From Acarospora socialis (taxonomy: Eukaryota; Ascomycota; Lecanoromycetes; Acarosporales; Acarosporaceae): DNA of 64,000 bases. The translations under genes and the position numbers were made by a program. Shown in pieces: positions 37,617 through 63,140 of this stretch. The DNA lies in assembly GCA_025617375.2 (NCBI GenBank), contig JAMYGW020000002.1:1426001-1490000 (forward strand), written 5' to 3'. Within the stretch, counting starts at the first letter, position 1. Every line of letters begins with the position of its first letter. The notes beneath the pieces were generated by a model that was given only the letters and a program-made list of their open reading frames with translations, ran no database searches and was not told where the DNA came from.

Positions 37617-38025
37617 TGTTATGTCCTGACCTGAGATTCCTCAGGTATTAGGACTAAGAATTTGTGCTTGTTGATATAAAATTTGTATGATATAATAGAA
37701 TCTGAATTTAACTCTTAGATGATAACTGAAGTTAAACACAATTCTTTTCATAAGAGAAACAATCATGACTATATACTGAGTTCACTCATCATCAAGTCTA
37801 TCAAGCTTGCTCACTCATTATTAGAATCTATATGAGTTCATGAAAGATGTCATTGCTAAAGAGCTACCTATGGAAAAACTCTGCATATATGTCCCTCATG
37901 AGTACCTTCCATATCTAGCAATTAGTTCTCATAAATTCATGATGACAGCAAGGTTGCTAAGTGACTCAGTGAGCCACATTCAAAGATCAAAGTCAAAACA
38001 GCAAGACTATGTCCTATCTGTAACA
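37617..38025 (-). repeat. Probable LTR of the chromovirus relic
   Basis: About 409 bp bounded by TGTTATGTCC and CTGTAACA, that is by TG...CA with the short inverted ends TGTTA/TAACA usual for LTRs. It lies just beyond the chromodomain end of the relic, at the expected place for a 3' LTR on the - strand. No second copy is in the window, so the assignment rests on the ends and position. Confidence 0.5.
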
Positions 38026-38029
38026 ATCT

Positions 38030-38538: not shown

Positions 38539-40074
38539 AATCTGTCCCAAAACAAACAAAAGATGATGATCTCATTGATGAAGTAATAATACTGACAGTT
38601 TTGCTGAAACAGTTGTAACAAGTAAATGATGATGTAAGATAATTTAAGAACAAGAAGCTCAGAGCTTTATCTATTTTGATGACATCTAAATGACATTCTT
38701 CTCTTATATCATTGATGAAGTCTTCAACAGCTAGATGATATGTCATTGTTCATAATTCAGTATTAAGTTCTTCACATTCTTCAAGTTCTTGATCTCATAT
38801 TATACAGTGTGACTATGATTATATTCTTTTCATTTGACTAAATATTTCATCATTGATCAATCACATTCATGATGTCTGATGTACTTATTCAGTAAATACT
38901 CAATTTTGTAAAAAGATATTATGTCAACATCATTGATATCACTCTTGTTTTCAATGAAAGAAAAATTAATATTAGACTGACAATCATATGAGTTGTCTTC
39001 TGACACAGTTGTCAGTTCTAACTGCACAATCAACATGATAGAGTGAATTTGCATGATAAATAATAAGTTAAAGCAATATACTAATTAATCAACATGTTCA
39101 ATGATGTGAAACAGATCAACTTACTGATTCAAAAGTTTTCAATTAATAAGATCAGAAATAATATAGCTGTAAAAAAGACACAGATAGATCAGTGATCTTA
39201 TTTTAAAACTGATGAATTTATATAAGATGTTATAGTATGTCTTGAAGATCACATTTGCAAAGACAATAGTCTGTTTGACTTTTTCACAGTTAATTTGTCA
39301 TAGAAGAATGTAATTCTCAGATAATAAGTTCATCAATAATAGTGTATTGAGAGTATTGTTTACACAGAATTCATAGATAAGTTCATTTAAAACATAATCA
39401 GTCAAGATCTTAAAGTTGTTCAGATAGTCTTAAAAATACAATAATATTGTAATAAAGACTTCATCATCTCTGTCTGAATCAGATAGATAGTAATATAAGA
39501 TAATTTTCATAATCTGATTTGTATACTTGAACTGATTATCAGTTTGTGAATAATAAACAGTGAAAGTGAGAAACTTAGTGTCTAAACACTCAAAAATGAT
39601 ATGTCAGAATGATAACAAGAACTTTTTATTGTAATCACTGATTATTTGTTGAGATATACTTAAGTCATAATCTATAAATTTTGATAATAAAATGTTTATT
39701 CAGTCTGAAGTCATATAAATAGATCTATCAGGCAGAAGAAGCACTTATTTGATAAACTTATTGATAATTGTAAGAAGATTATTGTGACTTTTATGATTAG
39801 ACAGTAATGTCAGAATAAAATTCATAGTTATTGTATAAAATGAAATTGACAGCATCAATATAAATTGTAAGACATCATATAGAGCATGTTGTTTTGTCTA
39901 ATTTAGCTGACTTTGTGAGCAATGAAGTATATATGTCTTTAGTTTTTTGAACAATCATCTCAGAAACAGAGAAATTAATATGCAGTTGTAGATTTGATGA
40001 AAATCACTGTGATGTTGTTAATCATGTACTAATTCAAAAATCTCTTTTTTTTAAAGCATTTTAATATACATAGA

Positions 40075-43000
40075 TTTTTTTTTTTTTTTTATTTATTTAT
40101 TTATTTATTTATTCTTCATTCTATGCATGCAGCTATAAAAGCTATGGCAGTTAATAGACATATAGTGAAAGATGTAGACATCAAACAAAATTCAAATCTT
40201 GTACATGTGAATAATCAATCTAATTGCTTTTTAATCACTTCTGTTCAGTAAGCACTACAGTTTATTTCTTCAACAGCAGATTCACTATCTATGAAAATAT
40301 CATGAATAACACAACAAATTCATCACAAATCACCATTCTACAACACAACTGCACAAGATCTATGAATGTCATGTACTCATGTCTGAATTCAGCTACAAAA
40401 ACTGCAGATATAGTTCTTCTTCAAGAACCATGAGTTGCAAGAGACAACAAAATCACTATTTCACATTCATTCTTTACTAGTTTGATACCCACATCTAATC
40501 TAGATATTAGACCTAGAACTATGGCATTTGTGTCTAAAACTAAACAAGATTTAGTGTGTATACCAAGACCTGACTTGTCAAAAGACTCAGATTTGCAAAT
40601 ACTCAGTATTTCAGCAAATGGAATTTCTAGTATACTGTTACTTAACATATACAATGAAAAGTCACAGCAAATCAACAATGATCAATGAATCATAGACAGA
40701 TGTTTAACAGCAATTCAACTACCACAAAGAGCTATTATCTGTGGAAATTTTAATGCACATCATGCATGATGAAATTCATCAATAGAAAACTCTATAAGAG
40801 CTACTTCTTTAATAAAGTGGTTGAAAATTCACAACTGTGAGCTATTAAATACACTAGACATAAACACCTATACACATCACTCAGAAAATGCCACATCAGT
40901 GATTGATTTGACTTTTGCAACACTCTTACTTTGCAATTTCATCAGAAATTGACAAGTAAATCAAGACATGGAGTCTGAATCAGATCATGAAGTTATTCAG
41001 TTTCAAATAACTGCAAATGAGTCTGAATGGGTTGAAAGTTCACTGAGTGCATCATACAATATAGACAAAGCAGACTGGGTTAAATTTGCAGAAACTCTGC
41101 AAATAAACTCAGTACAAACCAGTGTTCAAATTCAAAGCTTAATGCAACATCTATCAGATCAAAATCTAGAAGAAATGACTATTTCTCTCAGAAATCTGAT
41201 AGTAAATGCAGCAGATCAGCATATATCAAAGAGAAAATCTTGTTCAAAAGTCAAAGTATGATGGTCTGAATTATTATCAGTACTTAAAACTGAAATGAGT
41301 GGTTTTAGAAGATACTGAAAACATCACAAATCACAAGAAAACTGAAATCAATTCAGAAATGCAAGAAATAGATACTTTCACGCAATTCAGAAAGCCAAAC
41401 ATACCTTATGGACTACTTTTCTGCAAGGTGCAGCTGGAAAAGATGTTTTTACAGCATATCATTACACTAAACCACAAAAAATAGAGAAAACACCTTCTAT
41501 AAAGCATGAAAACAAAGTGGGACTCATATTTAAAGACAAATGTGACTTGTTTCTTGAAGCTATGTTTCCAAAACCACCTCAAACAAGTCCAGTTGAGCTA
41601 GAATGTGATAATAGTCTCACAAAACCATGGTTTTCAGTCATTTCTAAGGAAATAAAACAAGCTATTATGACTTCATCAACAAAGAAAGCACCTGGGCCAG
41701 ATGGATTGTCCTTTTTGATAATTCAACATGCATATCAAGCTATATCTGAGTTATTTCACACTGTTTATTCAGTTTTAATAAATCAAGACTATCATTCAGT
41801 ATGCTGGCGTCAAGAAACTGGTGCAATTCTAAGAAAAGAAGACAAAGCAGACTATTCAATACTTAAAGCATATAGACCAATCACTCTACTAAATTGCTTG
41901 GGCAAAATATCTGAAAAGATAATGGCAACAAGACTTTCCTATTGGGCTGAAATCACAGACTTGCTATATCATGAGCAAATGAGTGGTAGAAAGCAAAGAT
42001 CAGCTGTGGATGCAGCTATGTGTTTAACACATGACATTCAACAAGCAATCAACAACAACAAAGTCTTGACAGCTTTATTCTTGGATGTTAAGGGTGCATT
42101 TAACTATGTGTCTTTAAATCAACTGCTAAAAGTCATGAAAAGACTACATTTATCACAAACTGTACTAAAATGGGTGCAATGCTTTCTTACAAATAGAACA
42201 ATTGCTCTAGCTTTTGATGGTGAAAAAAATCACTCACAAAGTGTCAATTCTGGAATTCCACAAGGATCATCTATATCACCAATGCTATTTTTGATCTATA
42301 TGTGATTTCTATTCACAAAAATCAACAATAAACACACTCAACTAAAGCTACCAAGCTATATTGATGATGTGACTATTATTGTGAAAGAAAAAACAGCTGC
42401 AGACAACAGCAAAACACTAGAATCAGTCACAAAAACTGCATTTCAATGGGCTGAAGAAAATGCAGTTATATTTGATGACAGCAAGTCAGAACTCATCCAT
42501 TTTCAGAAAGGAAATCAAGCTATATCAACAGTAAAACTATCAAATAACACTGTTATACATTCTTCTAAAGTTGTACGCTGACTAGGTGTTTGGTTTGACA
42601 CTAAAATGTCTTTTAAGACACATGTGCAAAAGAAAATAGCTTCTGCAACTAGAACATTGCATTTACTGCATAGACTGATGAATTCTGAATGGGGTTTATC
42701 AACATCAGCTGGAAAACAGCTGTACACAGTCTGCATCACATCTATAAGTGACTATGAAAGCCCAGTATGGTGGAAACAACAAAAGAATTTTGAAAAGCTG
42801 TTTCAAAAACTTCAAAATTCAGCAACTAGAAAAATTCTAGATGCATTTAGGTCTTCATCATCAGCTGCTATGGAGCTAGAATCAGCTATATTATCACTCA
42901 GATTTAGACTTGATCAAAAAACAGAGCTATATGCTTTAAGAATAGCTACTTTGTCAGAAAATCATCCAATTAGACAAAGAACTCCATACACCTACCCATC

Positions 43001-44273
43001 AGGACTTGAAACTGAATGTGATATTGATGAAAATCATTATCTTGACTGAAATCAACATCCAAACTCTCTCATTAAGAAGAAACACCCAACTCAGTTGATT
43101 AAAGTGCTATATAGCATTTGCAAATATCTATCAGAAACACTAAATTTGGAGATTTCAACTCAAAATGAGTTATGCTGTGCACCTTGAAGTGTTTCATCAA
43201 ACATAGACATTCAAATCAGCAAATCTGACAAGAAACTAGCTACTTTGAAACATCTAAAGAAATTAGAAACACTTGTTTCTAAAGAAACTAGAGCAAGAAA
43301 TGCTATTCTATACACAGATGAGTCAAAACTAGATGAAAATCTAGGTGCAGATCTTTGCTACATGTATAAAGACATTATACATCAACAATCTTGAAATCTA
43401 GAAACTATCATGAAAGTCTATGATGCTGAATTGTTTGGAATCTCACAGTCTTTGAAGTTAAGTCTCAAAGAAATCATGAAATATCAAAGAATCAAAGATG
43501 TTTGAATCTTTTCAGACAATCAAGCAACTATACAGAGAATTCAAATCACAAATCAAGAATCTGAACAGCATCTAGTCATTAAATGTCAAGAAACTCTTCA
43601 GAAACTCATAGAAAATAAGATTACATCACATATTCATTGAATTTCTGAACATGAAGACATTAAAGGCAATGAAATAGCAGATAAAGCTGCAAAATTAAGT
43701 GCAAAACAATCAAATTCAGCTGAATCTGAAAGATTTACATCTATTAGCTATATCAGATGGAAAATCAAGGTCAAATTACTAAAAAACTGAATTGCTCACT
43801 GAAAAAAGATCAATCAAGAAAGATACTACTCACAGTTTGATCAAACATCAAGTTTTCAAATCAAAGAAGATCTGAAACAAGCTACAAGACTTTCATTTGC
43901 TACATTTACACAAATGAAATTAGATCATGACTATTTCAAAGCATATCTGCATAGATTACCAGACTACAACAGCAAGAAATACAATGATGCATACAACAAA
44001 GATCAAACTTCAGAGCATTTGTTGACAGTCTGTCAATACTTCAAGAAACAACAAACTGAGCTGAAAAATCAGCTTAGAAACATCAATCTGTCATATACAG
44101 CAAAGATGCTGTTTATCATCAAGAAAGAAATCAAAGCTACTTTATTGTTTTTGAAGAAAACAAAAGTAGCTACTAGAAAGTAATTGCTAGAAGAAGTTAA
44201 GCATGAAGATGAAGATTAAAAAAGAAAGAGAAGATATTAATTAACAATCAGCATCAGATTGACTGAACAGAAG
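40075..44273 (+). mobile_element. LINE A (Tad1-like), 5'-truncated, body inverted relative to its own 3' tail
   Basis: A non-LTR retrotransposon of the same family as LINE B. The 4-kb body 40250-44273 reads on the + strand from the start of ORF2 to its 3' UTR. The left part 40075-40249 is the family's 3'-terminal 175 bp in the opposite orientation, ending in a T-run and (ATTT)n that correspond to the tail. A 12-bp inverted repeat, CTTCTGTTCAGT at 40238-40249 and ACTGAACAGAAG at 44262-44273, marks the two sides. This is the layout expected from twin priming of a - strand insertion. The right edge abuts the tail of LINE B directly. ORF1 and the 5' leader are absent. Confidence 0.8.
40250..44220 (+). 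pseudogene. LINE A ORF2: endonuclease, reverse transcriptase, RNase H
   Basis: Domains in order: APE-type endonuclease from about 40300 (ITILQHNCTRSMNVM, later ESDHEVIQF); reverse transcriptase about 41600-42600, with KKAPGPDGLSFLIIQHAYQ, GIPQGSSISPM and the catalytic-box-like SYIDDVTII; RNase H about 43250-43720 with YTDES, YDAELFGI, SDNQATIQRI and EHEDIKGNEIADKAAKL; and a C-terminal zinc-binding relic near 44000. The frame is interrupted by about 17 in-frame stops. All but one are TGA at places where LINE B or the family pattern has tryptophan (for example 40431, 40686, 40767, 41326, 42302, 43638); the exception is TAA at 44181. There are no obvious frameshifts, which points to base substitution alone. 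Confidence 0.85.
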
Positions 44274-44468
44274 TTTATTTATTTATTTATTCTTCATTCT
44301 ATGCATGCAGCTATAAAAGCTATGGCAGTTAATAGACATATAGTGAAAGATGTAGACACAAAACAAAACTCAAAATCTTGTACATGTGAATAATCAATCT
44401 GAATGCTTTTTGATCACTTCTGTTCAGTCAACCTGATGCTGATTGTCAACCAATATCTTTTTTCTTTT

Positions 44469-47400
44469 CTAAATCTCATCTTCACCCTCAACTTCTCCTA
44501 ATAACCATTTTCTAGTAGCTACTTTGGTTTTCTTCAAAAACAGCAAAGTAGCTTTGATTCCTTCCTTGGTAGTAAACAGCACCTTTGCTGTATATGGCAA
44601 ATTGATGTTTCTGAGCTGATTTTTCAGCTCAGTTTGCTCCTTTTTGTTATATTGACAGGCTGTCAACAAATGCTCTGGGGTTTGATCTTTGTTGCATGCA
44701 CCATTGCATTTCTTGCTGTTATAGTCTGGTAATCTATGCAGATATGCTTTGAAATAGTCATGATCTAATTTCATTTGTGTAAATGTAGCAAATAAAAGTC
44801 TTGTAGCTTGTTTCAGGTCTTCTTTGATTTGAAAACTTGATGTTTGATCAAACTGTGAGTAGTATCTTTCTTGATTGATCTTTTTCCAGTGAGCAATTCA
44901 GTTTTTCAGTGATTTGACCTTGATTTTCCATCTGATATAGCTAATAGATGTAAATCTTTCAGATTCAGCTGAATTTGATTGTTTTGCACTTAATTTTGCA
45001 GCTTTATCTGCTATTTCATTGCCTTTAATGTCTTCATGTTCAGAAATTCAATGAATATGTGATGTAATCTTATTTTCTATGAGTTTCTGAAGAGTTTCTT
45101 GACATTTAATGACTAGATGCTGTTCAGATTCTTGATTTGTGATTTGAATTCTCTGTATAGTTGCTTGATTGTCTGAAAAGATTCAAACATCTTTGATTCT
45201 TTGATATTTCATGATTTCTTTGAGACTTAACTTCAAAGACTGTGAGATTCCAAACAATTCAGCATCATAGACTTTCATGATAGTTTCTAGATTTCAAGAT
45301 TGTTGATGTATAATGTCTTTATACATGTAGCAAAGATCTGCACCTAGATTTTCATCTAGTTTTGACTCATCTGTGTATAGAATAGCATTTCTTGCTCTAG
45401 TTTCTTTAGAAACAAGTGTTTCTAATTTCTTTAGATGTTTCAAAGTAGCTAGTTTCTTGTCAGATTTGCTGATTTGAATGTCTATGTTTGATGAAACACT
45501 TCAAGGTGCACAGCATAACTCATTTTGAGTTGAAATCTCCAAATTTAGTGTTTCTGATAGATATTTGCAAATGCTATATAGCACTTTAATCAACTGAGTT
45601 GGGTGTTTCTTCTTAATGAGAGAGTTTGAATGTTGATTTCAGTCAAGATAATGATTTTCATCAATATCACATTCAGTTTCAAGTCCTGATGGGTAGGTGT
45701 ATGGAGTTCTTTGTCTAATTGGATGATTTTCTGACAAAGTAGCTATTCTTAAAGCATATAGCTCTGTTTTTTGATCAAGTCTAAATCTGAGTGATAATAT
45801 AGCTGATTCTAGCTCCATAGCAGCTGATGATGAAGACCTAAATGCATCTAGAATTTTTCTAGTTGCTGAATTTTGAAGTTTTTGAAACAGCTTTTCAAAA
45901 TTCTTTTGTTGTTTCCACCATACTGGGCTTTCATAGTCACTTATAGATGTGATGCAGACTGTGTACAGCTGTTTTCCAGCTGATGTTGATAAACCCCATT
46001 CAGAATTCATCAGTCTATGCAGTAAATGCAATGTTCTAGTTGCAGAAGCTATTTTCTTTTGCACATGTGTCTTAAAAGACATTTTAATGTCAAACCAAAC
46101 ATCTAGTCAGTGTACAACTTTAGAAGAATGTATAACAGTGTTATTTAATAGTTTTACTGTTGATATAGCTTGATTTTCTTTCTGAAAATGAATGAGTTCT
46201 AACTTGCTGTCATCAAATATAACTGCATTTGCTTCAGTTCATTGAAATGCAGTTTTTGTGACTGATTCTAGTGTTTTGCTGTTGTCTGCAGCTGTTTTTT
46301 CTTTCACAATAATAGTCACATCATCAATATAGCTTGGTAGCTTTAGTTGAGTGTATTTATTGTTGATTTTTGTGAATAGAAATCACATATAGATTAAAAA
46401 TAGCATTGATGATATAGATGATTCTTGTGGAATTTCAGAATTGACACTTTGTGAGTGATTTTTTTCATCATCAAAAGCTAAAGCAATTGTTCTATTTGTA
46501 AGAAAGCATTGCACTCATTTTAGTACAGTTTGTGATAAATGTAGTCTTTTCATGACTTTTAGCAGTTGATTTAAAGACACATAGTTAAATGCACCCTTAA
46601 CATTCAAGAATAAAGCTGTCAAGACTTTGTTGTTGTTGATTGCTTGTTGAATGTCATGTGTTAAACACATAGCTGCATCCACAGCTGATCTTTGCTTTCT
46701 ACCACTCATTTGCTCATGATATAGCAAGTCTGTGGTTTCAGCTCAATAGAAAAGTCTTGTTGTCATTATCTTTTCAGATATTTTGTTCAAGCAGTTTAGT
46801 AGTGTGATTGATCTATATGCTTTGGGTACTGAATAGTCTGATTTGTCTTCTTTTCTTAGAATTGCACCAGTTTCTTGACGCCAACATACTGGGTGATAGC
46901 CTTGATTTATTAAAACTGAATACACAGTATGAAATAACTCAGATATAGCTTGATATGCATGTTGAATTATCAGAAAAGACAATTCATCTGGCTCAGGTGC
47001 TTTCTTTGTTGATGAAGTCATAATAGCTTGCTTTATTTTCTTAGAAATGACTGAAAATCATGGTTTTGTCAAGCTATTATTGCATTCTAGCTCAACTGAA
47101 CTAGTTTGTGATGATTTTGGAAACATAGCTTCAAGAAATAGATCACATTTGTCTTTAAATGTGAATCCTACTTTGTCTTCATGCTTTATAGGTGGTGTTT
47201 TCTCTATTTTTTGTGGTTTGATGTAATGATATGCTGTAAATATGTCTTTTCCAGCTGCACCTTGCAGAAAAGTAGTCCATGAAGTATGTTTAGCTTTTTG
47301 AATTGCATGAAAATATCTATTTCTTGCATGTGTGAATTGATTTCAGTTTTCTTGTGATTTGTGATGTTTCCAAAACCTTTTGAAGTCACTCATCTCAGTT

Positions 47401-48386
47401 CTAAGTACTGATAATAATTCAGACCACCATACTTTAGCTTTTGCAGAAGGTTTCTTTTTGAGTATATGCTGATCTGCTGCATTTACTATCAGATTTCTGA
47501 GTGAAATAGCTATATCTTCTAGATTTTGATCTGATGGTGTTTGCTGTAGACTTTGAACAAGTGTAGTGATTTGTGTTGAGTTTATTTGCAGTGTTTGTGC
47601 AAATTTATCCCAGTCTGCTTTGACAATGTTGTATGATGCATTTAGTGGACTTTCAACTCATTCAGACTCATTTGCAGTTAATTCAAACTGAATAACTTCA
47701 TGATCTGATTCTGACTTCATGTCTTGATTGACTTGCCAATTTTCTATGAAATTGCAAAGTAAGAGTGTTGCAAATGTTAAATCAATCACTAAAGTTGAAT
47801 TTTCTGAGTAATGAGTGTAGATATTGATGTCTGGTGTGTTTAACAGTTCACAGTTGTGAATTTCTAGTCAGTTTATCAAAGAAGTAGCTCTTATAGAGTT
47901 TTCTATTGATGAATTTCACCATGCATGATGTGCATTGAAGTCTTCACAGACAATTGCTCTTTGTGATAGTTGAATTGCTGTCAAACATCTGTCTATGATC
48001 CATTGATCATTGTTGATTTGCTGTGACTTTTCATTGTATATATTAAGTAACAATATACTAGAAATTTCATTTGCTGAAATACTAAGTATTTGCAAATCTG
48101 AGTCTTTTGACAAGTCAGGTCTTGGTGTACACACTAAATCTTGTCTAGTTTTAGACACAAAGATCATAGTTCTAGGTCTAAAATCTTGATTTGATGTGGG
48201 TATCAAACTAGTAAAAGATGAATGTGAAATAGTGGTTTTGTTGTCTCTTGCAACTCATGATTCTTGAAAAAGAACTATGTCTGCAGTTTTTGTAGCTGAA
48301 TTCAGACATGAGTGCATGACATTCATAGATCTTGCACAGTTGTGTTGTAGAATGGTGATTTGTGATGAATTTGTTGTGTTATTCAT
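44469..48386 (-). pseudogene. LINE B ORF2: endonuclease, reverse transcriptase, RNase H
   Basis: The domain order is as in LINE A. It starts MNNTTNSSQITILQHNCARS and ends ATRKWLLGEVEGEDEI. The C-terminal zinc-binding motif CNGACNKDQTPEHLLTAC (CX3CX7HX4C) is intact here. Compared with LINE A it has gained GGA>GAA and CCA>TCA changes in the reverse transcriptase: KKAPGPDGL in A is KKAPEPDEL here, and GIPQGSSISPM is EIPQESSISSM. It keeps Trp at some codons that are TGA in A, and the reverse is also true. In-frame stops are essentially all TGA. It is broken and not expected to be active. Confidence 0.85.
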
Positions 48387-49972
48387 GACATTTTCATAGA
48401 TAGTGAATCTGCTGTTGAAGAAATAGGCTGTAGTGCTTTGAAAACACTGCATTCTGCACTATTTGCTTGATGTTTCTCACCACAATTGCTGCATTTATAG
48501 ACTATATGTGCACAAGTGGTTCCTTTTGACTGTGTGAGACAAAGAAAACAGTCATGTTCTCTAGTATTGTGGTTTCCTGCACAGAATTGACAAGTGTCTT
48601 TGTTTTTGCATACAGTTTGCAAATGTTCAAATTTCTGACACTTTCTGCATTGATCTGTTCACTTGTATGTGTTGTAAACTGCAGTTCTGACTGATGTTTC
48701 AGCTATTATCAGTCTGTTTCTGAGTAGTTTCTGAATTTCTTGTTCTGATTTGACAGTCAAAACAATAGAATCATGCAGTTTTTCTTGTCTGACTTCTTCT
48801 GAGATAAGTCAGCGTGGTAGAACAGCTAGTTTAATGTCTTTATTGAAGGTTTCTACTTCATCTTTGACTAGTTGCATGTCTTCTTTGCTGTTGAAAATAG
48901 CTGTGGGAATTTCATGTGCTACTATTTTGTATCACTTTTCATCCTTTTTGATTTCTATGAATTCAGATGATGAATTCCAGATTTGTTGATGTTTTAGCAG
49001 GTCTTCTGCTGTGCCTTCACTGGTTGTGAGCACTATACTAGCTTTGAATTGTGAAATAGCAACTGTGGAAATCAGCAAATTGTCTATTTTTGCTGTTTTA
49101 AGTGCGTTGTTGATTTTGTTGCGCATGTCTATGGCATTGATAGTAGTTGTGAGTGTTTTTGACTTTATAACTAGACATCTTTCTCTGAAAGTAATGGGTT
49201 TATTCACTACTTTTGACTTTGGTGCTTTTTTTTGAACAGTTGTCCATGAGTTTTGAGCATTTTGATCTTTGCTGCTTGCAATTGATGCATATGTTGCTGA
49301 TTTCACTGTTTTTGTTGATGTTGACTGTCCAAAGCTGATTTTGTTTGTCTGTACAAAGTTAATAGAGTTTGTTTTGTTTGTCTGAAAGACAAATGCTGAT
49401 TTCTCTGTGGTTTCTGACTTTGTTTTAGACATTGTGTGAAGAATTTTGTCTAGTTTGATGTTGACTTCATCTTTGAAGCTGTCTAGTTGTTGTTGAACAT
49501 CTAGTTTCTGATGAAATGCTTCATCTGACTGTTTGAGTGAGTTTAGATTTGCATTTTGTCTTGCTTGATTCAGTGTCTTGATGCTAGTTTCTAGTTCTTG
49601 TTGAACTATGGGGTTTGTGAATTGCTGAATAGCTTGCTTGAGGTAGTTTCTGGCTTGTTGAAGTAGTTTGTCACCATTTTGACTTTTTGGGTGTAGGTTT
49701 GTGCAGTTTGCATGATGAGTTTCATGCTGATTTGGTTCTTCATCAGAAGAAATAGCTTCTAGCACTGAACTGGCAATGGCTCTTCTCTTTTTAGACTTTA
49801 GAATAGTCTTTTGAGAAGGTTTCATGGTGATTTGTGATTTCAACAGATCTGGTGAACTCATAAAGAGTTGTGAAAGTGCTGTTTTTGATGATTTTTGTTG
49901 TTTTGTAGATGTTTTTGGGTTTTCTAGGTTGAAATCTTGCATGAAGTTGCTGGAATCCAGTGCAAAAGTCAT
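48383..49972 (-). pseudogene. LINE B ORF1: gag-like nucleic-acid-binding protein
   Basis: The first 346 codons (49972-48932) are uninterrupted, starting MTFALDSSNFMQDF. They are rich in Gln, Lys, Ser and Thr, with a probable coiled coil (LLQQARNYLKQAIQQF) and then an RRM-like or transposase-22-like part (RERCLVIKSKTLTTTINAID). In-frame TGA codons follow where tryptophan is expected. The end, 48622-48383, carries zinc knuckles (CQFCAGNHNTREHDC and CSNCGEKHQANSAEC), which are typical of LINE ORF1 proteins that coat their RNA. The stop codon TGA overlaps the presumed ORF2 start as ATGA at 48386-48383. Confidence 0.8.
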
Positions 49973-51339
49973 GATATGAGGTGTTTTTGGGGTCCATTCT
50001 GTTCAAATTCAAAATCCTATCCAAATTCAGGTCCAGAAGGTCTATGTCTAGCAGTATTTATCTAGTTTTTGAAGGTAAAAACTAGATTTTCCTGAGATTC
50101 TAGATTATAGAAGCTTTGAATTCTTATTTCATCTAGAATAGACTGTACCCAATTGCCTAATTCAGATGTTGCTTAATATCCCAATTCACCTAGAGTAGAT
50201 AAACTCTACAATAGACTTTTACCAGCTCTACTATAAGCAAGACTATACTATAAGTCACTCAATCACTAGATCTTGGGGCAGATGCATCTAGGGCAAGATT
50301 TTCACGTGAAGCCTCATATTTATATCCCAACTACTATGACAACGTTGTTTGCCAGTCTGAGCTTTTATCAGCAGGTAGAGCTAGAAAATAGCTATCTGCT
50401 TATACTCTTCACTAGGTCTTTGTGAGATGCTTTTAGTGTAGGGTATGTCTTCACTGGTAGGTTCTTTCTGCATGCAAAACGCTAATCAATTGACAGAAGA
50501 AATGCTCAAATTCCAGCTAAATCCGTCAAGAAATAGCTATTTTGCGGCTAGTTTTTGCGGAAACTGCGTGCAGTTGCTGGAATTGAGCAATTTGGTGTAA
50601 TTCAGCCTGTAACGCTTAGAAATTTGACCTGAAACGCTGGTTTTTGAGCGAAAATAGCTGAAAGGTAGTTGATTTTGTTGATAAAATAGCTTGTTTTGAT
50701 GGTAGAGCTATGTAGGTATGTTGTATGATGTGTGAATTGATGTGGCTTGGTGTGTATAGGCTGAAATTGCTGCGTAGTTGGCGTAAAAGTGGTGTTTTTG
50801 GTGTTTTCTTGGTTGTTTTGGTGTTTTTGGTGTTTTGGTGTGAGTGAGGCTTAGTTGAGGTATCTGGTGATGCTTGGTGCGCAGAAATTCTGTCAAGCAA
50901 GCTAGGAAAATTAAGCGAAAATTTGCGAACTTCAAAAACTAGGTACTAAGGGGTACAACTAAACAGTTCAACAACTTTGTGAGCAATAAAGATATCAAAA
51001 AGCAGTAATAGTATGAATTTTAGAAGAGATCAAGATGAAGAAAACTGTTGGTTCAGAATTTTCAAAGACACATTGATTGTGACAATGTTGATGTCCAAAA
51101 TGTTGTTTTGGTTTTTGGCAGGAGGTATGCGAAAAATTTTGGGAGAATAGTAATTGAGGTTTCTCACCACCAGTATTGATGATGAAGATAAGCTGTTTTA
51201 AGGATTTATGAAAGTGAATGAGACAAAGAATTTGCTCTATTCAGAATTTTGATAGCTGGTTTGGTTGTGGTTCTGTGGTTTTTTCGTGAAATTTTGTCCA
51301 TCCTGATTTGATTGTGATTCTGTGGTTTTTTTTGTATTG

Positions 51340-53500
51340 ATCACAATACTAGAGAACATTTTGAATCACTATAATATATACTGATTATTTTGTTGCTGTT
51401 ATCATAGTTTGTCAATTGAGTCTCAACACTGTTGACATCAAAAAGCTGAACTTGTGTCTTGTATGTGTCTTCAAATATTTGCAACAATTTCATCTCAATG
51501 TTCACTACAAGCTCAATAAAATCAACATTGTGCTCAACATTCTTTCTCACTTAATCAGTTGTGAATATCAGTCTGAATTGAATAAATTTAGTCTTAATGT
51601 CTTGCTCATCTCAGCATCTATCTATGCAAATAGTCTGATCAAAATGTTGTCTTAATTTCATCAATGTCTTCTTGACAACTACATCAAGTCACACTGACAA
51701 CAAGTCATTAACATGATCAAGCAAAATGATGTTCTCAATATCAACATTACAATACTACTGTACACACAGATATGAGATCTTCTTTACTATAAAGCTATCA
51801 AAAAGAACTATCATTTATGTATACTCACATACTTGTATGAAAAGATGTTCATCTTGACTTATGACTTTCTGAATCACTCAGATTATGTATATACACATGA
51901 ATATCTTATTGATAGTTTATATCTTTCAGATTTATTGAAGCATCTATATGAATATATACATCATTGCTTTCAATGTCAGCTTATGCAAACATCTCAACAT
52001 AAACTCTACAGATTCATGCAGTCTATTCTTACATCTTCACAATCATTTCACATTATAACTGTTAACTTTATACTGACTTTACTCATGTCACCATCATCTA
52101 ATCATTATGACACAATTTTGTCAGTCACAAATAAATTCAGTAAAACAGTGATCTTCATATCAGAATAAAAGATCATGATGACTGAGAACTGAGCTATACT
52201 CTTGATGAATTGTCTCATCTTACTAAACTGAGATTTATCACAAACTATTCTATTCAATCAGAACAGAAAGTTTACAGTTATCTTGTAAAAAGTACTTTTT
52301 CATCAGCTATGTGTCAATCTTCTATTTTCATTGATCTATTATTCACAGACTGATGACAGTTTCAAAGTAATTAATTAAGTTACTGAAATCACTTTACAGC
52401 ATTGACTTATCATCTTGAAACAGTCAGACAACTGATCAAGCATGTTGTCACACTTATAAGCAACATTAAATAATTCAACTAAGTACAGCTTCACAAATCT
52501 GAGTTCAAATGAGATTCTCTTTGAATTTCAAACACATGAAATTCTCAATCTACTGTGAGTTAATGAACCTGATGTCATCAAATTTTTTACTGACAACACT
52601 GACTCAGTGAAGCATTCAGTGAAACATGTCAAACTCATCATTATAGATCAATACAAATCAGCTCACATCAACACAAAAGATGCTATTGTTTTTGCTATCA
52701 TATGTATGAAGAAATACTATGATAAGACTCACTTATCATGATTTTTTCAGTCTGATAATATAATCAATCTATGACTACACTGCAGCTATACTCTATCTAG
52801 TCTTGTTGATTAAAATAAGAAGTTAAAACAGCAATTCATCAGTTCACTATGCATCATCAAACAAATAAAACAACTAGTCTACCATCTTAACTTATCTGTC
52901 ACATGAAAAATTCATGATATTATATCAATTGCTCATTTAGAATCTGTCTTGCAATCTGAAGACAACTTATATTAACATTTTCAATCTGATCATTCAAACA
53001 TCATTATTATGTTGTTCAACATTTCTGAATGAAAACTTGAGCATCTTTTACAAAAATAAATGTATCAAAGAGATCATGAATTTATCACAGAATATCTAGC
53101 TCAATGAGTAGAATACAGATCTAAATATGACAGTTGAATCAACATTAAGAATCTTGACAATGCAAGAAAGTTAGTGAAGAACTTTGAATGTGATAACAGA
53201 GTAAATATGAAAGCAGCTTTGCTGTAGAATGTGTGAGAAGATTATATCAGTATGAATTTGACAGTGAAACATTATCTTATTTGCTTTGCAGACAAACTGT
53301 TACAGATTTACCTAACACATCTATTTTATCTTGCTGTCACTCTTATTCTGTCTGACTGCTGACATCATAACATGATTTATCTTGCTATCAAGTCTATCTC
53401 TCATCTGTATATCTAGCTGATTCTATAGCTTAGAAAATATCATTCTTCTTTAACTTTACACAATGTTCATAGCAAACTATTTTCAAAATATATGAACAAT
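51340..53500 (+). mobile_element. Ty3/gypsy chromovirus relic, RNase H to chromodomain
   Basis: A fossil LTR retrotransposon on the + strand. Recognisable parts are the end of RNase H (about 51416-51600), the integrase zinc-binding domain (about 51890-52020, with HH and CFQC), the integrase core (about 52040 onward, NKFSK) and a chromodomain (about 53080-53190). A possible 3' LTR starts near 53306. The left part is missing, cut at LINE B's 5' side. It is heavily broken, with dozens of breaks, and old. It faces the opposite way from the relic at 37.6-40.1 kb, so the two are separate insertions. Confidence 0.7.
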
Positions 53501-54190
53501 ATTGCTGAAGCAATGCAATAATGCTTCACAGAAACTGTAAGAGTGACAATTAAAGACTGAGCTTCAGATTGATGCAAGAGTGCTTATTGTATGAAGTAAC
53601 AATGTTATAAAGTTAAAATCAACTCTGAATGACTGATACAAATTCTTTAACATTACATTGCAGTACACTGTGCTCTATATGTCTATTCAGAATGATATTA
53701 CTGAAAGAGTTATTTATATCATTGAGAATTCAGTGCACATCATAATCAAAAAGACAGAACTTTCAATAGAGTTCTAAATGAAAACAGTGCAAATAAATAT
53801 TTATCTTTACAATTAAACAATAATCAATTTTTTGATCAACAACAGACAAACAACTCTGAAGAAGATCTTCACTGATGTACAGTTATTCATTAATTATATT
53901 TGTGTCTGAGACTGCAAGTGCTACTTCTATGTTGACTTTAAGTTGTTGTCAAAAAACAGACAAAATAAGTTCATAAATTAAGAATGAGTGAAAGTCTTCA
54001 TAAATTATATAAATAAAATCACAAAGCAGTATCTGCTTTGAGCTTCAGATCTTAAGTGAATTATCAAAAATTATATTGTAAAGTTTGTTGAGAATGAGAA
54101 GAAAAACAGTGTTGATCTCAAACTGCAAAAACAAATACTGAACATTCTGTTTGAACAGAAGTCAGTTAAGTAATTATGAAAAAATGTAGT
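53500..54190. other. AT-rich spacer without recognisable parts
   Basis: About 700 bp between the chromovirus and copia relics. It may be LTR or flanking sequence of either, but I cannot assign it. Confidence 0.4.
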
Positions 54191-56453
54191 TATTATGAAT
54201 TTTACAGCATCTACAACTCTGTCTATTATCTTTAAGCAAATTTACAGATTCAGATTCATGAATTCAGACAATAAAGAAGAATTTAAGTTGATTGTAAACA
54301 ATTTTGACACATTCTCATCAAATATTCATATAATGAATAAATCAATCACAGTCAACTTAAACAAATTACAGACAAATAAACAAAATGAAATCAAGCAGTT
54401 TTCACATATTGAAGTTTTCATCAGCAAAGCACTGAATATTTTAACTGAAAAAGTTAAAACATTCTTGTGTGTTGAGATTCTGAAGAAAAAATAAAATGAT
54501 GATGATAAAGACTTTAATGAGTTCATAATTAAGATATCATGAACTATACTGATATTCATAGTGTTCATCACAGATAATAAAAAAAATACTGAAAATATTA
54601 AATCTAACATTTTCATATCTGTTATTTACAGAAGCAGTGAAAGATTCAGTTTGAGAAAAGATATAAAAGAATGTTATTGATGCAGATTTAATAATTTTGA
54701 TAGTCAATGAAACATAAGAAGAAATTGTATCATCAAAGAATGTAAATATAGTGATCAGCAAATGAATATTTAAATTTAAACTAAACACTGATGAATCTCT
54801 GAACAAATTTAAAATAAAAATTATGATGAGAGATTTCTTACAGATGTATAACATTAATTATAAGAACATTTTTACATTTACAGTTAAGTTTGACACTCTT
54901 TGAGTCTTTCTTATCATTGTTGTTCTTAAGAATCTTGAATATCATCAGATAAATGTCAACAATGTTTTCACAGAATTCTTTTTTAAAAAAATCATCTACA
55001 TAACAGTTTTTTCTGAAATTCAAGTTGCATTTAACTGTGCACTGTATATACTGTGTAGTCTTTATAATCTGAAGTAAACTGTGCAAAACTGACATAAATG
55101 ATGCATTACTAATCTGTGCAAGCTAAACTTTCATTAAAGTAATATTGATTTATGTTTTCTCATTAACAGCATCAAAAGAATCATGCTGCTTCTTTATGTA
55201 AATGATATAATTGTAGTTTCAGTAAGTCTGACACATGTTTTTTAATTTAAAAAAGCTTTTGTGAAGATATTCAAAGTTAAGAACTTGAGAAAGACACAGA
55301 AAATTCTTAACATATAAGTTACACATAACTGTAAAAGAAGAATTCTATATTTAAATCAGACTCATTATATGAACAAGATGCTGAAAGATCTTTATATGCA
55401 GTTCAATAAGCACAAGATCACAACAATTTCACTCAATAAATATGATGTTTTTTGTCTCACTGATTCAGCTGATCAAAGAATAAATTAAAGACAATATTAA
55501 CATGCAATTGAAAGTCTGATGTATGTGATGATTCATATTTAATTAAACATCATCTTTACTTTAAATCAACTAAATCAGTATTTTAGTGATTCTGTAGAAC
55601 ATCATGAACATGTGTTCAAGAAACTGCTGTAATATGTGAGATTAATCATCAATTTTAACATTGTGTACAAGCTTAGTGAGAGTTAAGTTATACTTAAATA
55701 TTTTGATTTTGACTATATATCAGACAAATAAGATTGAAATTAATTCTGAAACATATGTATATATTTGAAGACAAATCAGTATTATGAACAAGTTAAAAAC
55801 AGAAGTCTATTATTATTTTAATTACAGAGACTGAATACATAATTATATCAATATGTGCAAAGACTGAAGTCTGACTTACACAAATGTTGCAAGACATAAA
55901 TATGAATAAGTATTTTGAAGACAATTTATACTTTGTGAACATCAAGAAAAATGAAATTCATTGAGCAGTCTCATCTCTTTAACTCAAGAAAGACAATCAA
56001 ACTGTTTTGATTCTGATCAAAAATGTATATGTGCATGAATGATTAAAATACATTAACATTGTCTATCATTATATTTGTGATCTGCACAAGCAAAATCATA
56101 TTGATGTGAACTTTGTGCTCAGTTAAGACATAATGATTAATGAATTAATTAAGTTTTTATTTAAATAAATCTTTAAGTGTTTTGTTGAATAACTGAGACT
56201 TACTGTTAATGAAAATCAATAGATGCAACATCATTAAGTGAAAGTGTTGAGAAGTGCAGTGTTCTAGTTGCTTTCATAATCTTAATTGAAACTAACATCA
56301 GAAATTACTCATTACTCATATAGTCTGCATAACAGAGTATGTGAATTGACAATCTTTACAACTTACATCAATCATGATTAAGTCAACAATGTACATTTCA
56401 TTAAATAGACAGTTAGTCAGCAGTATAGCACAAGTATTCTTTATATCTTTCAA
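54190..56453 (+). mobile_element. Ty1/copia relic 1 with 3' LTR
   Basis: A fossil copia-type element on the + strand. A gag-like region lies at 54190-54850, the reverse transcriptase at about 54850-55650 (with LLLYVNDIIVVS near 55190), RNase H to about 56150, and a 3' LTR at 56260-56453. The internal region is shorter than a complete copia element, so integrase and other parts are missing or unrecognisable. It is broken by many changes and old. The LTR belongs to the same family as the one at 61080. Confidence 0.7.
56260..56453 (+). repeat. Copia-family LTR, copy 1
   Basis: About 195 bp beginning TGTTCTAG and strongly similar over its whole length to 61080-61274. Shared words include ATCAGAAATTACTCATTACT and AGACAGTTAGTCAGCAGTAT. 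A purine-leaning tract precedes it, as expected for a 3' LTR of relic 1. Confidence 0.75.
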
Positions 56454-59400
56454 TAAATTTAATATGTTTAAACAAGAACTTAATTAGTTCATCAATTATT
56501 ATGTTGCAACTGAACACAAAATCTATCTAAATTTAATTTCTTTTTTGCAGATTGCAGACATGATAATAGACAATATTAATATGTTTTAATTATTTATATA
56601 CATGTGTGTTCTTAATTGAAGTCAAAACAATTTAATTGTCTTCTTTATACTGAAGAGATAAAGCTATCTGATGAGTTTTATTTTCTTTAATGTTTATACA
56701 GTATGAATTATTTTCAAGTTACTTACTCATATTTATGTTTCTCAGTATCTGAGTGAATCAGATTTCAGTCTTTGTATACATTAACATAATTATGTACTCA
56801 GTTTCAGTAATTAATATGATGACAGATTTCTGTTTTTGACTTATTTACAACATTAATTTATTTTTAAACATATAAACATATTTCAAAATGAACTTTCAGT
56901 CTTATTTGTCTGATGTATAGTTTGAGTCAGAGTATTTAAGTATGAATTGACTTTCATTAAATTCAGACATTATATTAAAATTGATAGTTAATTTAACATA
57001 CTGTAATAACTCTTTAAATGTATATCTATAATGTTTTGCAGAATTATTGAGATATTAATTTAATTAATTTAAAGTAAAGATGAAATCTGATTGAATATGA
57101 ATTGCTGTATATATTATTATTATTATTCTTACTTTTACACTAAACTAGCTATGCTAAGCAGAACTTCTCTTCAGTTCATATTTTAGAAAATTTTACAAGA
57201 ATGAAAATCTAAACTCATAATGTTCTTTGTATGAAAGTAAATTAGATGTAAAAGTTGAGTGAATAAGACATAAGATGAGTGATTTCACTTTTAATTATAA
57301 AGAACACTGATCATAAACTGAAACTGACTTAAATGACTGTTACACATAATTCATTTGACAGTTTCATAAGTCAACTCTTTGATAAACAAAAGTTATATAA
57401 AAATTTTTTTTCTTTCTTTCTGAATAATAAGCAGCTGTGAACTTCTTCTGATTTCATATATCAGTAATATATGTTGTGAAATTTTTACTCTCTTATTACA
57501 CAAGCAGTTAACAGAGAAAATTTCAGAAATCTTAATTTTGTGAAGAAAGTAATTATAATCAATGCATCTTATATAAAACTGAATTAATTCTAAACTTTAA
57601 ATCTTTCTCAGTTTCTGATGAAGCTGAAAAACTCTTTTAAAAAATAATTTAATAACTTAATTTTATCTTCTGATCTTCTTTTTCTGATTAGTGTTATATT
57701 ATTTTTTAGTTTATATATTTTGTATAATCTTCTTCAAGCTGATCTTCTCTGTCAGTTTTATTGAGAAATAAATAACTATTATAATCATCATGAATTGACA
57801 GACTTTCTGCTTGATTCTTTTTCTGATGAGACTGTAAATTTTGTTTTTTATTTCTGTAAAGACTGTGCTTTTTGTATAAGCAGCATAGATTTGCACTTTA
57901 TCATTTAAATATAGATCAAGAGAAAAAATATAAATCTTAATTTTCAAAGTGCTGATTGAAGTAATCTGATAAGTGTCAGCAATTATACAAAGATATTTGA
58001 ATTGAATGATCTTAATTGCACTGATGATTTTTTTTATGTGATGATTCTTGATAAATGTGTGTTAAATATATATTTTATAAATCATTGCTAATCAAATGAC
58101 TGTTGTGTAGATCTGTTAAGATCATACAAAAAAAGTCTTTCAAATAAATACTGCTATTCTGATTAATGCTTCTGTTTGTTTGATTATTTTGTTTTGAAGA
58201 ATTTTGACATGAGTAATTCATTTGAACTTAAAATCAAATCAAATTTCTAAGATTCTTACACTTGAAAAAGAAATTAATTCATTATTTTAAATTTGTACAA
58301 CTGTTTACATATTGAATCTGATTCTGACTTTGAAGAAGTGAATTATTTTATATTTATGAGAGACAAATTTAGCTTCTTGTTGTGTGACTTAGCTTTTATA
58401 TTTTTTATGAAATTTTTTCAATTTGATGTAGTTAATCTCAATGAACAGTTTATACAAAAGAATGTTGACATTATCAGTGAAGTTAATTGTTAAAATTTTC
58501 TCTTTTAATTAATTACATCACTTCAGCAGATCTGCATTGTAAAATAGAAAGAAAATAAATAATAAAAAAAAATCTTATAAAACTTCAGTCTTCACAGAAA
58601 AGCAGCTTGTCTTCTGTTTTTATATAATCAGTAAAATAGTTTAATTGTGAAGAAAGTTCTGAATTCATTATATAATTCAATAAAATATTTATTTTTTCTG
58701 CAAGCTGTTCAGAAGTCAAGTTGAATTCATTGTGTTAAAAATTTTCACTATGTTCATTGATAAAAGAATGACAACATACTTTTTACTGTTTCAGATTGTA
58801 CAAATCTGACTTATTAACTGATTCAGTACAGTTTCTGTAAATTATTCTGTTTTACATTTCATTTAACTTTCAAAAAGAAAATTGTTATTTTCTGCAGTCT
58901 GTTTAATTTATATAATTAACAAAGTTTTTATAATTTTCTTCACTGTATTCAGCAGAGTGATTAATTTTTATGATTTAATTTCTTTGTAGAATTGCTTTTC
59001 TGACTTACATAACATTATTGTATAAACTTTCTTGTATCTCTCAGAAAGAAAGTTTAACTTTCAGTTTATATTGATGAAATTGATTATTGTTTGAGCAAGT
59101 TTGAGTTTCATTACTTTAAAAAAGCAATATAAAATGCTGTCTAACTCTGAAGCATTGTAAAATGCTTTTGTATAAAGAATTACAGAAATTTTCTTGACAT
59201 TAGTTGAGTCAGAGATGAATATAAATTGAATAAAGATATTTAAATTAATAAATTTGTTCTTCTATGAAGATCAAAGCACTTTGATATTTAAAATATTCTG
59301 AAGATTGATTGTCATTTTGAAATAAAAATTTTTTTTAAAGATCTCAGCTTTTTCATTTAGAATGTAAACTTCTTTATGTATTGTATGAATTAAGAAAACT

Positions 59401-61079
59401 GTTGTTGCAGAATTTGAATTTTTTTTTTTCATTTTGATTAAAATTTAAAGTTTATTTTTCTCTATCATCTTGCTGATCACATTACAAAAATATATAATTT
59501 TTGCTTTTACAATCAGATCTCTCTTAACCTTATCTTTCATCTTAATTAACTTTCATGCTTTTTCTGTACAAATTATTCTTACTTATTGTTTTTTTTTTTC
59601 TTATTTAACTGTCTTATCAATTGTATCTATTCATCAGACTTTTTCTTAATTCAAGAACTTGTATATAGAAACTGAGTTACTGATTAATATCTCAATAAAG
59701 TTAATAAAATACTCTGTGTATTGTATAATCTCAGTTTTTGTTGATAAATCTTAATTTATCTGAAAATATTGAGTTTCAGTCAGTATAATTTCTTGATTCA
59801 TTTTCTTTCAGTATTTCATCTTGCTTTAAGTGATTTGTACAATCTTAAGATTGAGAATTACTGAGATTGAAAAATGATCTGAGTCATAATTTATATTTTT
59901 TTTAATAAAGTATTTTTTCAATTGATCTGTAAAAATCTGACTGATAAAGATTAAATTTATTGTGCTGAAATTTTTTTAAATATATTAAGTAGAGATTTTT
60001 GATGTAATCAATAAAGAAAGATTGTACAATGTGATTGTCTCAGCAAGAACTTCTTTCATATTATAAATACTTAAGTTAAAAAGTTCACTTCATACTACTG
60101 AATAATGTAAATTGAAGTTTTTTAAAATTATGTGTTTATTCTTTCTTTGTACAAATGTCAACAGAAGAAAAATAAAAAAAAAGTAATCAGTGTTTGTGTA
60201 ACTTTCTGAAGACTGCAAATAAATGTTGTATATTTAGAGAGTTTTGTCATTTGTACAAAGATAAAATATACATAAGTTGAAAATAAGAAAATTCACTGAC
60301 CAGATGCTGAAATCAAGTTTTTTGTTAATTAGAAAGTAACTTTATCATGAAATCAAATTATGCTGTAAAATAAAAGAAGTGATCTTGAAGTTGTAAAATG
60401 TTGATGTAAAAAAATGTTGTTAAAATTTTTAAATTATCAAAATTATTGTATAATCAGATTGTCTTGTCAGTCAGAAAAGAAATCATTATCTTGTTTTTGT
60501 TTTTCTGCATATTATATTGCAAAATGAACAGCTTATTCATTAACTTGTGACTGAGAGAGTATTTCTATAATTGTAAAATTTGTATAATTAGCTGTTAATA
60601 TCTTAAATAATCTTTTTCTTTTTTTTTTAGAATTAAAAGAAAGTCATTATTACTGACTGTTATAACTGAGTTTAAGAACTGAAAAGTGAAACTAACATTT
60701 TCATGAGAAAATGTTTTGAATAAAATGTTCAGTGAAACTCTGAGAAAAAGATTTTTGATTGAAATCTAAAAGCATGTAAATTGTATAAAATAGATTTGTT
60801 TTACTTTCTTCACTTTCTTTACTCTTTTTAAACAATATTTAATTCATACAGAATGATTTTTGTTTTTTTTTCTGCATAATGCACATTAAATCTTCAGAGA
60901 ATTCTTTTTATTGATGTAATTCTCAATTATATAACTTGATGCTGTACAGAAGTCACATTATATGATTTTTTTGCAGTACTTAACTATGTAATTCTTGTAC
61001 TGCTGATATTTAAAGCATTAAATGACAATACAGTTTTCAGAGAAGATCTTACAATTATAAAACTTGTTAAGAAGTATGA
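56454..61079. other. 4.6 kb of AT-rich sequence, unassigned
   Basis: I could not recognise any gene or transposon protein here. CC, GG and CG are almost absent, and T- and A-runs are common. Short frames such as 57711-57947 (-) and 58293-58493 (+) are vaguely protein-like but match no family I know. It is probably one or more older transposons decayed past recognition. Confidence 0.5.
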
Positions 61080-61274
61080 TGTTCTAGCTGCTTTCATAGT
61101 CTTAGTTGAAACTAGCATCAGAAATTACTCATTACTCATATAGTCTGTGTGACAGAGTATGTGAATAGATAATCTCTACAACTCATGTTGATCATAGTTA
61201 AGTTAACAGTGTATGTTTCACTAAATAGACAGTTAGTCAGCAGTATAACACAAGTATTCTTTTATTTCTCAACA
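61080..61274 (+). repeat. Copia-family LTR, copy 2 (5' LTR of relic 2)
   Basis: About 195 bp bounded by TGTTCTAG and CTCAACA, similar to 56260-56453. It is followed by a leader containing three diverged copies of a roughly 80-bp unit (61310-61600) with the word GATACAGAGCT, which resembles a tRNA primer-site word. Confidence 0.75.
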
Positions 61275-62631
61275 GATTATAAACTCAGATTAGCAAGAAG
61301 CTTCTTAAAGAAAGTGCATACTGTTTTAGTGTCTTGACAGCTTAATATGAGAACTCAAAAATTAAACAAAATAAACATTACTGATCATTGATACAGAGCT
61401 TTAAGATTGAACAAAATAATACTTTTAACAGCTTAATACAAGATTAAAACAAATATTCTTGATCATCAATACAGAGCTCAAAGATTGAGTAAAATGACAT
61501 TCTCAGCACTCAATATGAAGCTTTAAGATTGAGTAAAACAAAACTTACTGACAATTTGATACAGTGCTCAACAGTTAAGCAAATAAGCACACACACTTCT
61601 TCTTTTTCTTATTTACATTGTTTTTTTCTGTATATTTTAATACTTCATTTTATTTATTTCTTATATTATGTGCTGACTGTCATCAAAAGCTACATTATGA
61701 ATTGTGACAACTTTTTCACAAAACAACAATCTATTTCAATTCTCAGTTACAAGAACTGCAATCAACAATTTACTTTTATGAGAAGATGACTGATAAATGA
61801 AGATCTGTAATACATCATTGAGATTTCAGTAATTAGTATTTCTGTCAATAACTTCTTCTTTTTACTCAGCAATTTTAACTTTGAAAGTCAGAAGTCTGAT
61901 GCAAAAACTTTATACTAACTTATCATTTATATCAATACAGATGATCAGAAGTACATTATAGACAATATTAATGCAAAGAATGCTTGAAATATCTTGAAGT
62001 TCAAATACAAGAAGAAGCTGCAGATCACTGAAAAACAATATTTAATGAAGTTTATTGAATATAAAATGTTGATAAATGTATTTATTAATGAAGCATAAGT
62101 ACATTTTAGCAAGCTGAACAGAAAAATTGCTGCAACTCAGTCTAATATAACTGATCTATTTAAGTCTGAGCAACAATTTCAGACATTTCTTTAAGCATTA
62201 TCTGAGAATTATACAGTGATTCACAACACAATCAATACTCAAAACATTTCAAATATCAAGAGAAGTCTGCAGAAGCTTTAAGAGAAAAAGACACAATTAA
62301 AAATTGTTGAGACTGTCTTGTAAACAGATTAATATAAAGAGAAAAACTCAATACACTTATATCAACATGATGTGAAATATCATTATTGAAGATTGTTAAA
62401 CTTCAGCAATGATCATTCTTCTCAATATAAATCAGTTAAATATCTTTTCTGCTGTGATTCTCATCACATTTAAGACTGTGAATATCTTTCTGCTGCTTGC
62501 AAAAATATTGAGTTAAAAAAATTATCTGTTTTAATTGCAGTTAAGTCAGTCAGAAAGTTGAACAAGTTGTTTGCAGACAATTCACATCATAAAAATAAAA
62601 TAAAATTTAAGCACAGAAACAGAAAACATAG

Positions 62632-62644
62632 AGTTTTTGATGCT
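62632..62644. repeat. SINE target-site duplication, left copy
   Basis: AGTTTTTGATGCT, identical to 63128-63140 on the far side of the SINE. It belongs to the interrupted copia relic. Confidence 0.9.
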
Positions 62645-63127: not shown

Positions 63128-63140
63128 AGTTTTTGATGCT
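63128..63140. repeat. SINE target-site duplication, right copy
   Basis: AGTTTTTGATGCT, identical to 62632-62644. It abuts the first base of the tRNA-like head. Confidence 0.9.

Follow-up and report, generated by a model that had tools for sequence, protein, structure and literature searches.

CpG- and CpC-targeted C-to-T mutation of repeats in the ascomycete Acarospora socialis

Introduction

In Neurospora crassa and most Pezizomycotina, repeat-induced point mutation (RIP) is recognized by C-to-T and G-to-A changes that are limited to repeats, end at sharp borders, and vary in severity between copies, together with a RID-like gene and broken reading frames in transposable elements. The same features are found in and around the stretch of the Acarospora socialis genome (Ascomycota; Lecanoromycetes) examined here, a window of 64,000 nucleotides from contig JAMYGW020000002.1 of assembly GCA_025617375.2 (C2:1426001-1490000, where C2 is the label of the contig within the 38-contig assembly of 31,147,409 bases). 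However, whereas Neurospora-type RIP is RID-dependent and acts at CpA, in this genome CpG and CpC (counted on both strands as CC/GG) are exhausted, CpA is kept, the standard RIP indices are negative, and the stop codons gained are TGA from TGG, not TAA or TAG from CAA or CAG.

Other described systems differ in other respects. Mixed signatures combine CpG with CpA in Aspergillus and Tuber, and CpT with CpA in Botrytis, Sclerotinia, and Magnaporthe (PMC4352252, PMC2621366); these resemble the present case in their repeat-linked C-to-T change and in having a context beside CpA, but here CpA is not preferred and CpC is, and no CpC signature is named in the relevant parts of those sources. In Microbotryum and other basidiomycetes, hypermutation falls on TpCpG or CpG, as outlined in PMC4352252, making CpG a main target there as here, whereas in A. 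socialis CpC is equally exhausted, a 5′ T is not preferred, and a RID-like gene is present. Methylation induced premeiotically in Ascobolus immersus (Masc1, of the Masc1/RID family) is likewise repeat-directed according to the account in PMC13297926, but it methylates without mutating, while here the bases themselves are changed. A Dim2-linked mitotic process in Zymoseptoria tritici also yields methyltransferase-linked C-to-T changes in transposons; its target is CA, and CG is spared (PMC8016269). The signatures named in the relevant sections of four papers are CpA, CpA with CpT, CpA with CpG, and CpG or TpCpG (PMC4352252, PMC2621366, PMC10998396, PMC5148876), and no earlier report of CpC together with CpG as the preferred target was found in the literature searched, outside which most subscription journals lie.

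Loss of CpG and CpC in the window and on other contigs

Dinucleotide expectations for the window are means over 200 shuffles per stretch. A sequence-only reading had reported CG, CC, and GG to be nearly absent from the AT-rich part of the window and found none around 57000-57500. Indeed, 57001-57500 holds neither CG nor CC/GG (shuffle means 7.1 and 13.4), and the depletion at 54001-62000 is stronger than claimed: 0 CG and 2 CC/GG against means of 119.2 and 237.5, the minimum of CG plus CC/GG across shuffles being 313. There, CA/TG (1068 vs. 739) and CT/AG (882 vs. 737) are in excess and TA is in deficit (805 vs. 1142). The reported abundance of CA/TG and CT/AG also holds over 40075-62640, with counts of 3518 and 2782 above means of 2348 and 2350, and TA again below its mean (1829 vs. 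2798); this larger stretch retains 24 CG and 326 CC/GG (means 493 and 989), of which all 24 CG and 318 CC/GG lie in 40075-51300, a part made up of long interspersed nuclear elements (LINEs) that is only partly CpC-depleted. Positions 1-36000 have a GC content of 0.507 and near-normal CpG and CpC.

The void pattern recurs in several repeat families and on several contigs. Among 100 one-kb windows from ten arbitrary 10-kb stretches on contigs C1-C7, 29 contain at most two CpC/GpG/CpG; 37 have a GC content below 0.33, and the 8 non-void ones among these 37 all fall in one stretch, L015, at the left end of C1. Across 488 half-kb bins (stretches with undetermined bases, N, excluded), mean CpG falls from 67 at GC >0.50 to 0.2-1.1 at GC <0.31 and mean CpC from 66 to 0.8-2.1, while the corresponding means are 65 and 53-63 for CpT and 68 and 62-81 for CpA. 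CpG is exhausted before CpC, and the slow change at CpT and CpA is of similar extent in both: 83 of the 488 bins have lost all CpG with CpC remaining (60 of them outside LINE copies), and none shows the reverse. Because CpG is a target on both strands, its being the first to vanish is no proof of a higher rate per cytosine. Intermediate bins, with CpG almost gone, CpC partly kept, and GC 0.34-0.39, were observed in L022, L023, and L024, at the ends of C3, C2, and C4, respectively.

Direction and context of change

Copia-like elements show the saturated state most clearly. The old set comprises 11 copies (that of the window and 10 others) out of 93 matches to 54001-58000; all 11 have 0 CpG and at most one CC/GG each. 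Over their 55 pairs, transitions amount to 0.149 and transversions to 0.0040 per site, a 37-fold preponderance of transitions. Between the window part and the copy L007 (C2:1489996-1492980), 452 differences are transitions and 11 are transversions.

At L037 704-4450 (C2:444704-448450), an unmutated copia copy of normal GC content, with 106 CpG and 242 CC+GG in 2 kb, allowed the changes to be polarized against 3 of its 39 other listed matches (69-78% identity). None of 311 CpG was retained (149 became TG, 113 CA, 40 TA, and 9 other), nor was any of 713 CC/GG (CC became TC in 430 cases, TT in 166, CT in 102, and other in 15), whereas 567 of 783 CpT and 616 of 861 CpA survive (72% each). Each copy differs from the L037 copy by 441-462 C>T/G>A and 36-38 T>C/A>G changes (about 12:1), with 31-33 transversions. 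No preference for a 5′ T at CpG appeared in this test (TCG 107/210, ACG 99/175, CCG 68/108, GCG 71/135). These counts support the earlier proposal of a mutator, or of methylation-driven deamination, aimed at C before C or G; dominance of CpA>TpA, which the same proposal had named as speaking against it, is not seen. That this one copy, whose listed matches have no more than 69-78% identity, is unmutated would fit a requirement for high similarity.

For the LINE family, 13 copies (10 plus 3 in or near the window) were aligned out of copy C and the 44 matches listed for LINE A, which include LINE A itself; gapped positions were excluded, and in the comparison of LINE A with LINE B, difference sites with a variable neighbor were tabulated separately. 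LINE A and LINE B differ at 192 C<->T positions, 158 of which have an unchanged 3′ neighbor (CpC 59, CpA 53, CpT 44, CpG 2). Per site, this amounts to 59/113 (.52) for CpC and 2/4 for CpG, against 44/530 (.083) for CpT and 53/680 (.078) for CpA. The preference therefore lies in the rate per site; the count made by eye on short stretches of these two copies had understated CpA and CpT, which jointly outnumber CpC.

L036 (C14:62715-66737), the copy with the least mutation among the 13, served as the reference. From L036 to LINE A, 89 of 203 CpC, 4 of 14 CpG, 29 of 531 CpT, and 31 of 682 CpA are changed, and in all 12 comparisons from L036 CpC is changed above both CpT and CpA; CpG, with its 14 sites, has a higher rate than CpC in 6 of the 12 and a lower one in the other 6. 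Seventeen TGA, 3 TAA, and no TAG interrupt the open reading frame 2 (ORF2) frame of LINE A over 4025 bases, in agreement with the some 17 Trp-to-TGA changes reported earlier. Relative to L036, the stops gained comprise 14 TGG>TGA, 1 CGA>TGA, and 1 TGG>TAA, and none arose from the 64 CAA and 14 CAG codons of L036, which has 29 TGG. The LINE, old copia, and polarized copia tests agree, and the polarized one gives the direction of change as C to T.

Taken per site relative to L036, transitions at CpG/CpC exceed transversions 24- to 234-fold in the 12 LINE copies, with LINE A, LINE B, and four other copies at the low end. Transversions relative to L036 number 75 in LINE B (over 44416-48438), 35 in LINE A, and 3-19 in most copies, and part of LINE B may derive from another LINE subfamily. 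Private changes, taken from columns with exactly two alleles, comprise 49 at CpG/CpC and 93 at CpA/CpT; they under-represent CpC because CpC sites are altered in many copies. Their strand clustering reached p=.003 in LINE A and.30-.86 in the other four copies with at least 12 changes. Private changes set against transversions as a clock were uninformative (CpG/CpC rho.17, p.59; CpA/CpT rho.54, p.055).

L036 retains an open ORF2 stretch of 957 residues with reverse transcriptase and RNase H domains by Pfam, as if the LINE lineage were adapted to CpG loss.

Rates of change and standard RIP indices

In simulations started from the window's own gene DNA and fitted to three saturated blocks (the 4 best of 250 rate sets per block), the best fits place CpC at 11-92, CpG at 8-72, and CpT at 0.6-1.6 times the rate of CpA, with the CpG rate above the CpC rate in 4 of 12. 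A Neurospora-like preset is worse than these fits by a factor of 73-181 and was rejected, as were context-free and CpG-only presets.

These fits bear on whether CpG and CpC are lost by two separate processes, methylation decay at CpG and a distinct RIP-like mutator at CpC. The bins that have lost CpG while keeping CpC, never the reverse and mostly outside LINE copies, would suit such a division, as would L036 itself, which is nearly without CpG but still has CpC. However, CpG, being targeted on both strands, should vanish first even at equal rates, and two rates are not seen, either in the fits or in the LINE comparisons, where CpG falls below CpC in half the cases; we consider two processes improbable.

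With a void window defined as at most two CpC/GpG/CpG per kb, strict RIP indices (a rule including TpA/ApT >1.1) and loose ones alike flag 0 of 96 void windows, in which mean TpA/ApT is 0.72 and mean (CpA+TpG)/(ApC+GpT) is 1.56. The single window flagged among 469 overall, at 2501 of L015, lies in a mitochondrial-looking stretch. Canonical CpA-type RIP would make CpA the preferred target and the indices positive; neither is the case here. A kingdom-wide screen of 1,239 species concludes that a preference for CpA is common to RIP-like defences, and also mentions undescribed RIP mechanisms in ascomycete clades (PMC12543289); a large survey of Ascomycota uses indices built on CpA and TpA (PMC7882544). 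The A. socialis genome is a clean counterexample to the shared preference and is negative on such indices, and therefore RIP may be under-called elsewhere, although an agnostic k-mer screen might still detect the CpG/CpC pattern.

Borders and AT-rich controls

At the borders with gene DNA in L037 and L017, CpG and CpC drop from normal to 0 over 100-200 bp, whereas CpT and CpA hold steady. C:G-to-T:A change is concentrated in repeated DNA, and unique neighboring DNA is spared at the four borders inspected, as in RIP. The L037 copia copy ends near one sharp border, with a CpG/CpC-void block at about 5000.

The sequence-only reading had also put forward CC/GG depletion in unique AT-rich DNA as counting against a repeat-directed process. 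AT-rich composition by itself does not bring the depletion with it: the AT-rich stretch C1:1-2500, with CC odds of 1.14, keeps its CpC; its frames continue with TGA read as Trp, and it looks mitochondrial. The pattern might be a misinterpretation of ordinary CpA-type RIP, which also leaves AT-rich repeat blocks, or of base composition alone; given that no void window is flagged, that the Neurospora-like and context-free presets fit far worse, and that C1:1-2500 keeps CpC, this explanation is hardly credible.

At the left end of C1, a chromosome-size contig, L015 1-3900 is AT-rich, and its frames stay open only when TGA is read as Trp; it has the appearance of a mitochondrial plasmid, or of mitochondrial DNA that became attached to the contig. 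The ribosomal DNA of the assembly reads as that of a filamentous ascomycete. A second 5.8S locus, L026 (C28), was tried as a polarized ribosomal DNA test and rejected: it shows 3 mismatches and 23 gap openings, with many single-base gaps, against L025 over 2190 aligned columns, which suggests an error-rich assembly copy or an uncorrected long-read contig.

Candidate enzymes

Three C5-methyltransferase genes were identified, RID/Masc1-like, DIM-2-like, and DNMT5-like, so that both of the types (RID and Dim-2) suggested as worth seeking in this genome are present. The RID-like gene, so labeled by its motif layout, lies at C2:1418256 to ~1421160, 4.8 kb upstream of the window. Its predicted protein scores 132 bits against PF00145 and carries PPCQ (PCQ at motif IV). 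Motifs VIII and IX are separated by a short region of 82 residues, and motif VI is ENT, which aligns with ENV in DNMT1. In the published comparison consulted, motif VI of the Masc1/RID family is EQT or EET (PMC6709928). For RID itself, methyltransferase activity was not detected in vitro, and its chemistry is described as unresolved (PMC13297926). The gene that we label DIM-2-like has 9bap_A as its closest solved chain (642 bits), and the DNMT5-like gene encodes a C5-methyltransferase fused to an SNF2 domain.

C>T change with a neighbor preference is typical of cytosine deaminases, and an enzyme of the AID/APOBEC type, in place of a methyltransferase, would account for that aspect of the pattern. 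The general deaminase model PF00383 has 7 matches, in our judgement the small number expected from housekeeping enzymes (APOBEC-specific models were not searched), and we regard this alternative as very improbable.

Proposed mechanism

Damage is found in repeats and on both strands; it is selective, runs to saturation, and consists mainly of C-to-T change, and in these respects the process works like RIP. What the sequence-only reading called an undescribed system is better seen as a RIP-like system whose target preference is undescribed. We consider it probable that a RID-type RIP with a preference for CpG and CpC acts on the repeats of this fungus. In such a defence, duplicated DNA would be recognized by homology, presumably in the sexual cycle as in RIP, and any C standing before G or C would be converted to T (G to A on the other strand) until no CpG or CpC is left, with CpT and CpA following much more slowly and at about equal rates. 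The catalyst would be the RID-type enzyme with ENT at motif VI, and the slow CpT/CpA phase may be due to the same enzyme or to a second, methylation-linked process.

The principal competing explanation requires no mutator: in silenced repeats, CpG and CpC would be methylated by the DIM-2-like and DNMT5-like enzymes, and the resulting 5-methylcytosine would slowly deaminate. Both genes are present, and Z. tritici repeats carry mostly CG methylation, followed by CA and CC (PMC8016269). Its chief support is L036, which is poor in CpG (observed/expected 0.06) but not in CpC (CC/GG 0.79). Against it, the total loss of CC/GG in the polarized copia test would require CpC methylation as complete as that of CpG; PMC8016269 also places CC methylation below CA and shows hardly any mutation at CG in Z. 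tritici; and the transition excess reaches 234 fold per site in young LINE copies. We favour an active RIP-like mutator over methylation-driven deamination, which we hold to be less likely but a serious rival, while recognizing that sequence alone does not separate the two.

Several observations weigh against a RID-type RIP of this kind. Canonical RIP prefers CpA. The family is already CpG-poor in its least mutated LINE copy, and the low-end transition excess is compatible with methylation decay. Same-strand clustering of CpG/CpC changes is absent from the 12 LINE comparisons (p.36-1.0). Positions 57117-58000 of the window are depleted but unclassified, with no relative among the matches listed. 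The ties to RID and to the sexual cycle are inferred, and the departure of ENT from EQT/EET appears in one gene model set against one published comparison.

A narrower proposal, tentative though plausible, is that the RID-type enzyme of this lineage switched from CpA to CpG and CpC through the motif VI Asn (ENT) or the recognition region; that the Asn matters for the target is a guess. If such a switch occurred, RIP here hardly touches the usual CpA sites and goes undetected by standard indices, and a surviving LINE family is nearly CpG-free yet keeps its 957-residue ORF2 frame open. It would provide a natural specificity variant of RID, in which the determinant of the target base could be tested by exchanging domains or residues between RIDs.

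Organization of the window and of the LINE copies

The features of the window are listed in Table 1.

Table 1. Features of the analyzed window (positions counted from its first base)
Feature	Position	Strand	Remarks
Short patch of mutated, AT-rich repeat preceding the block	37501..38000	.	1 CG, 16 CC/GG, GC 0.33
Unmutated island between mutated stretches	38001..38500	.	25 CG, 62 CC/GG, GC 0.52
AT-rich repeat block	38601..64000, on to ~C2:1515900	.	CpG ~0 throughout; CpC half-depleted to absent
LINE A, ORF2 part of a non-long-terminal-repeat retrotransposon, partly mutated	40250..44274	+	17 TGA in ORF2 frame
LINE B, inverted relative to LINE A	44416..51301	-	75 transversions vs. L036, above other copies
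Open frame, 356 aa, 5′ part of LINE B	48932..50002	-	Pfam match: none
Old copia-like element part	53475..56457	+	0 CG, 0 CC/GG
CpG/CpC-void core, 8 kb	54001..62000	.	0 CG, 2 CC/GG
Stretch with dispersed genomic relatives	54001..57116	.	93 matches to 54001-58000, self counted
Stretch with dispersed genomic relatives	58003..62000	.	52 matches to 58001-62000, self counted

LINE copies occur in several places as inverted tail-to-tail pairs with a spacer of ~140 bp: in the window at 40250-51301, at C7:1321170-1327220 and C7:1357102-1363152, and at C11:925379-933231. This arrangement suggests a composite unit that is copied whole. Furthermore, LINE matches are grouped in one region per contig (C1:2653-2801 kb, C8:203-242 kb, C10:184-267 kb, and C14:9-92 kb), and these clustered regions could be centromeres.

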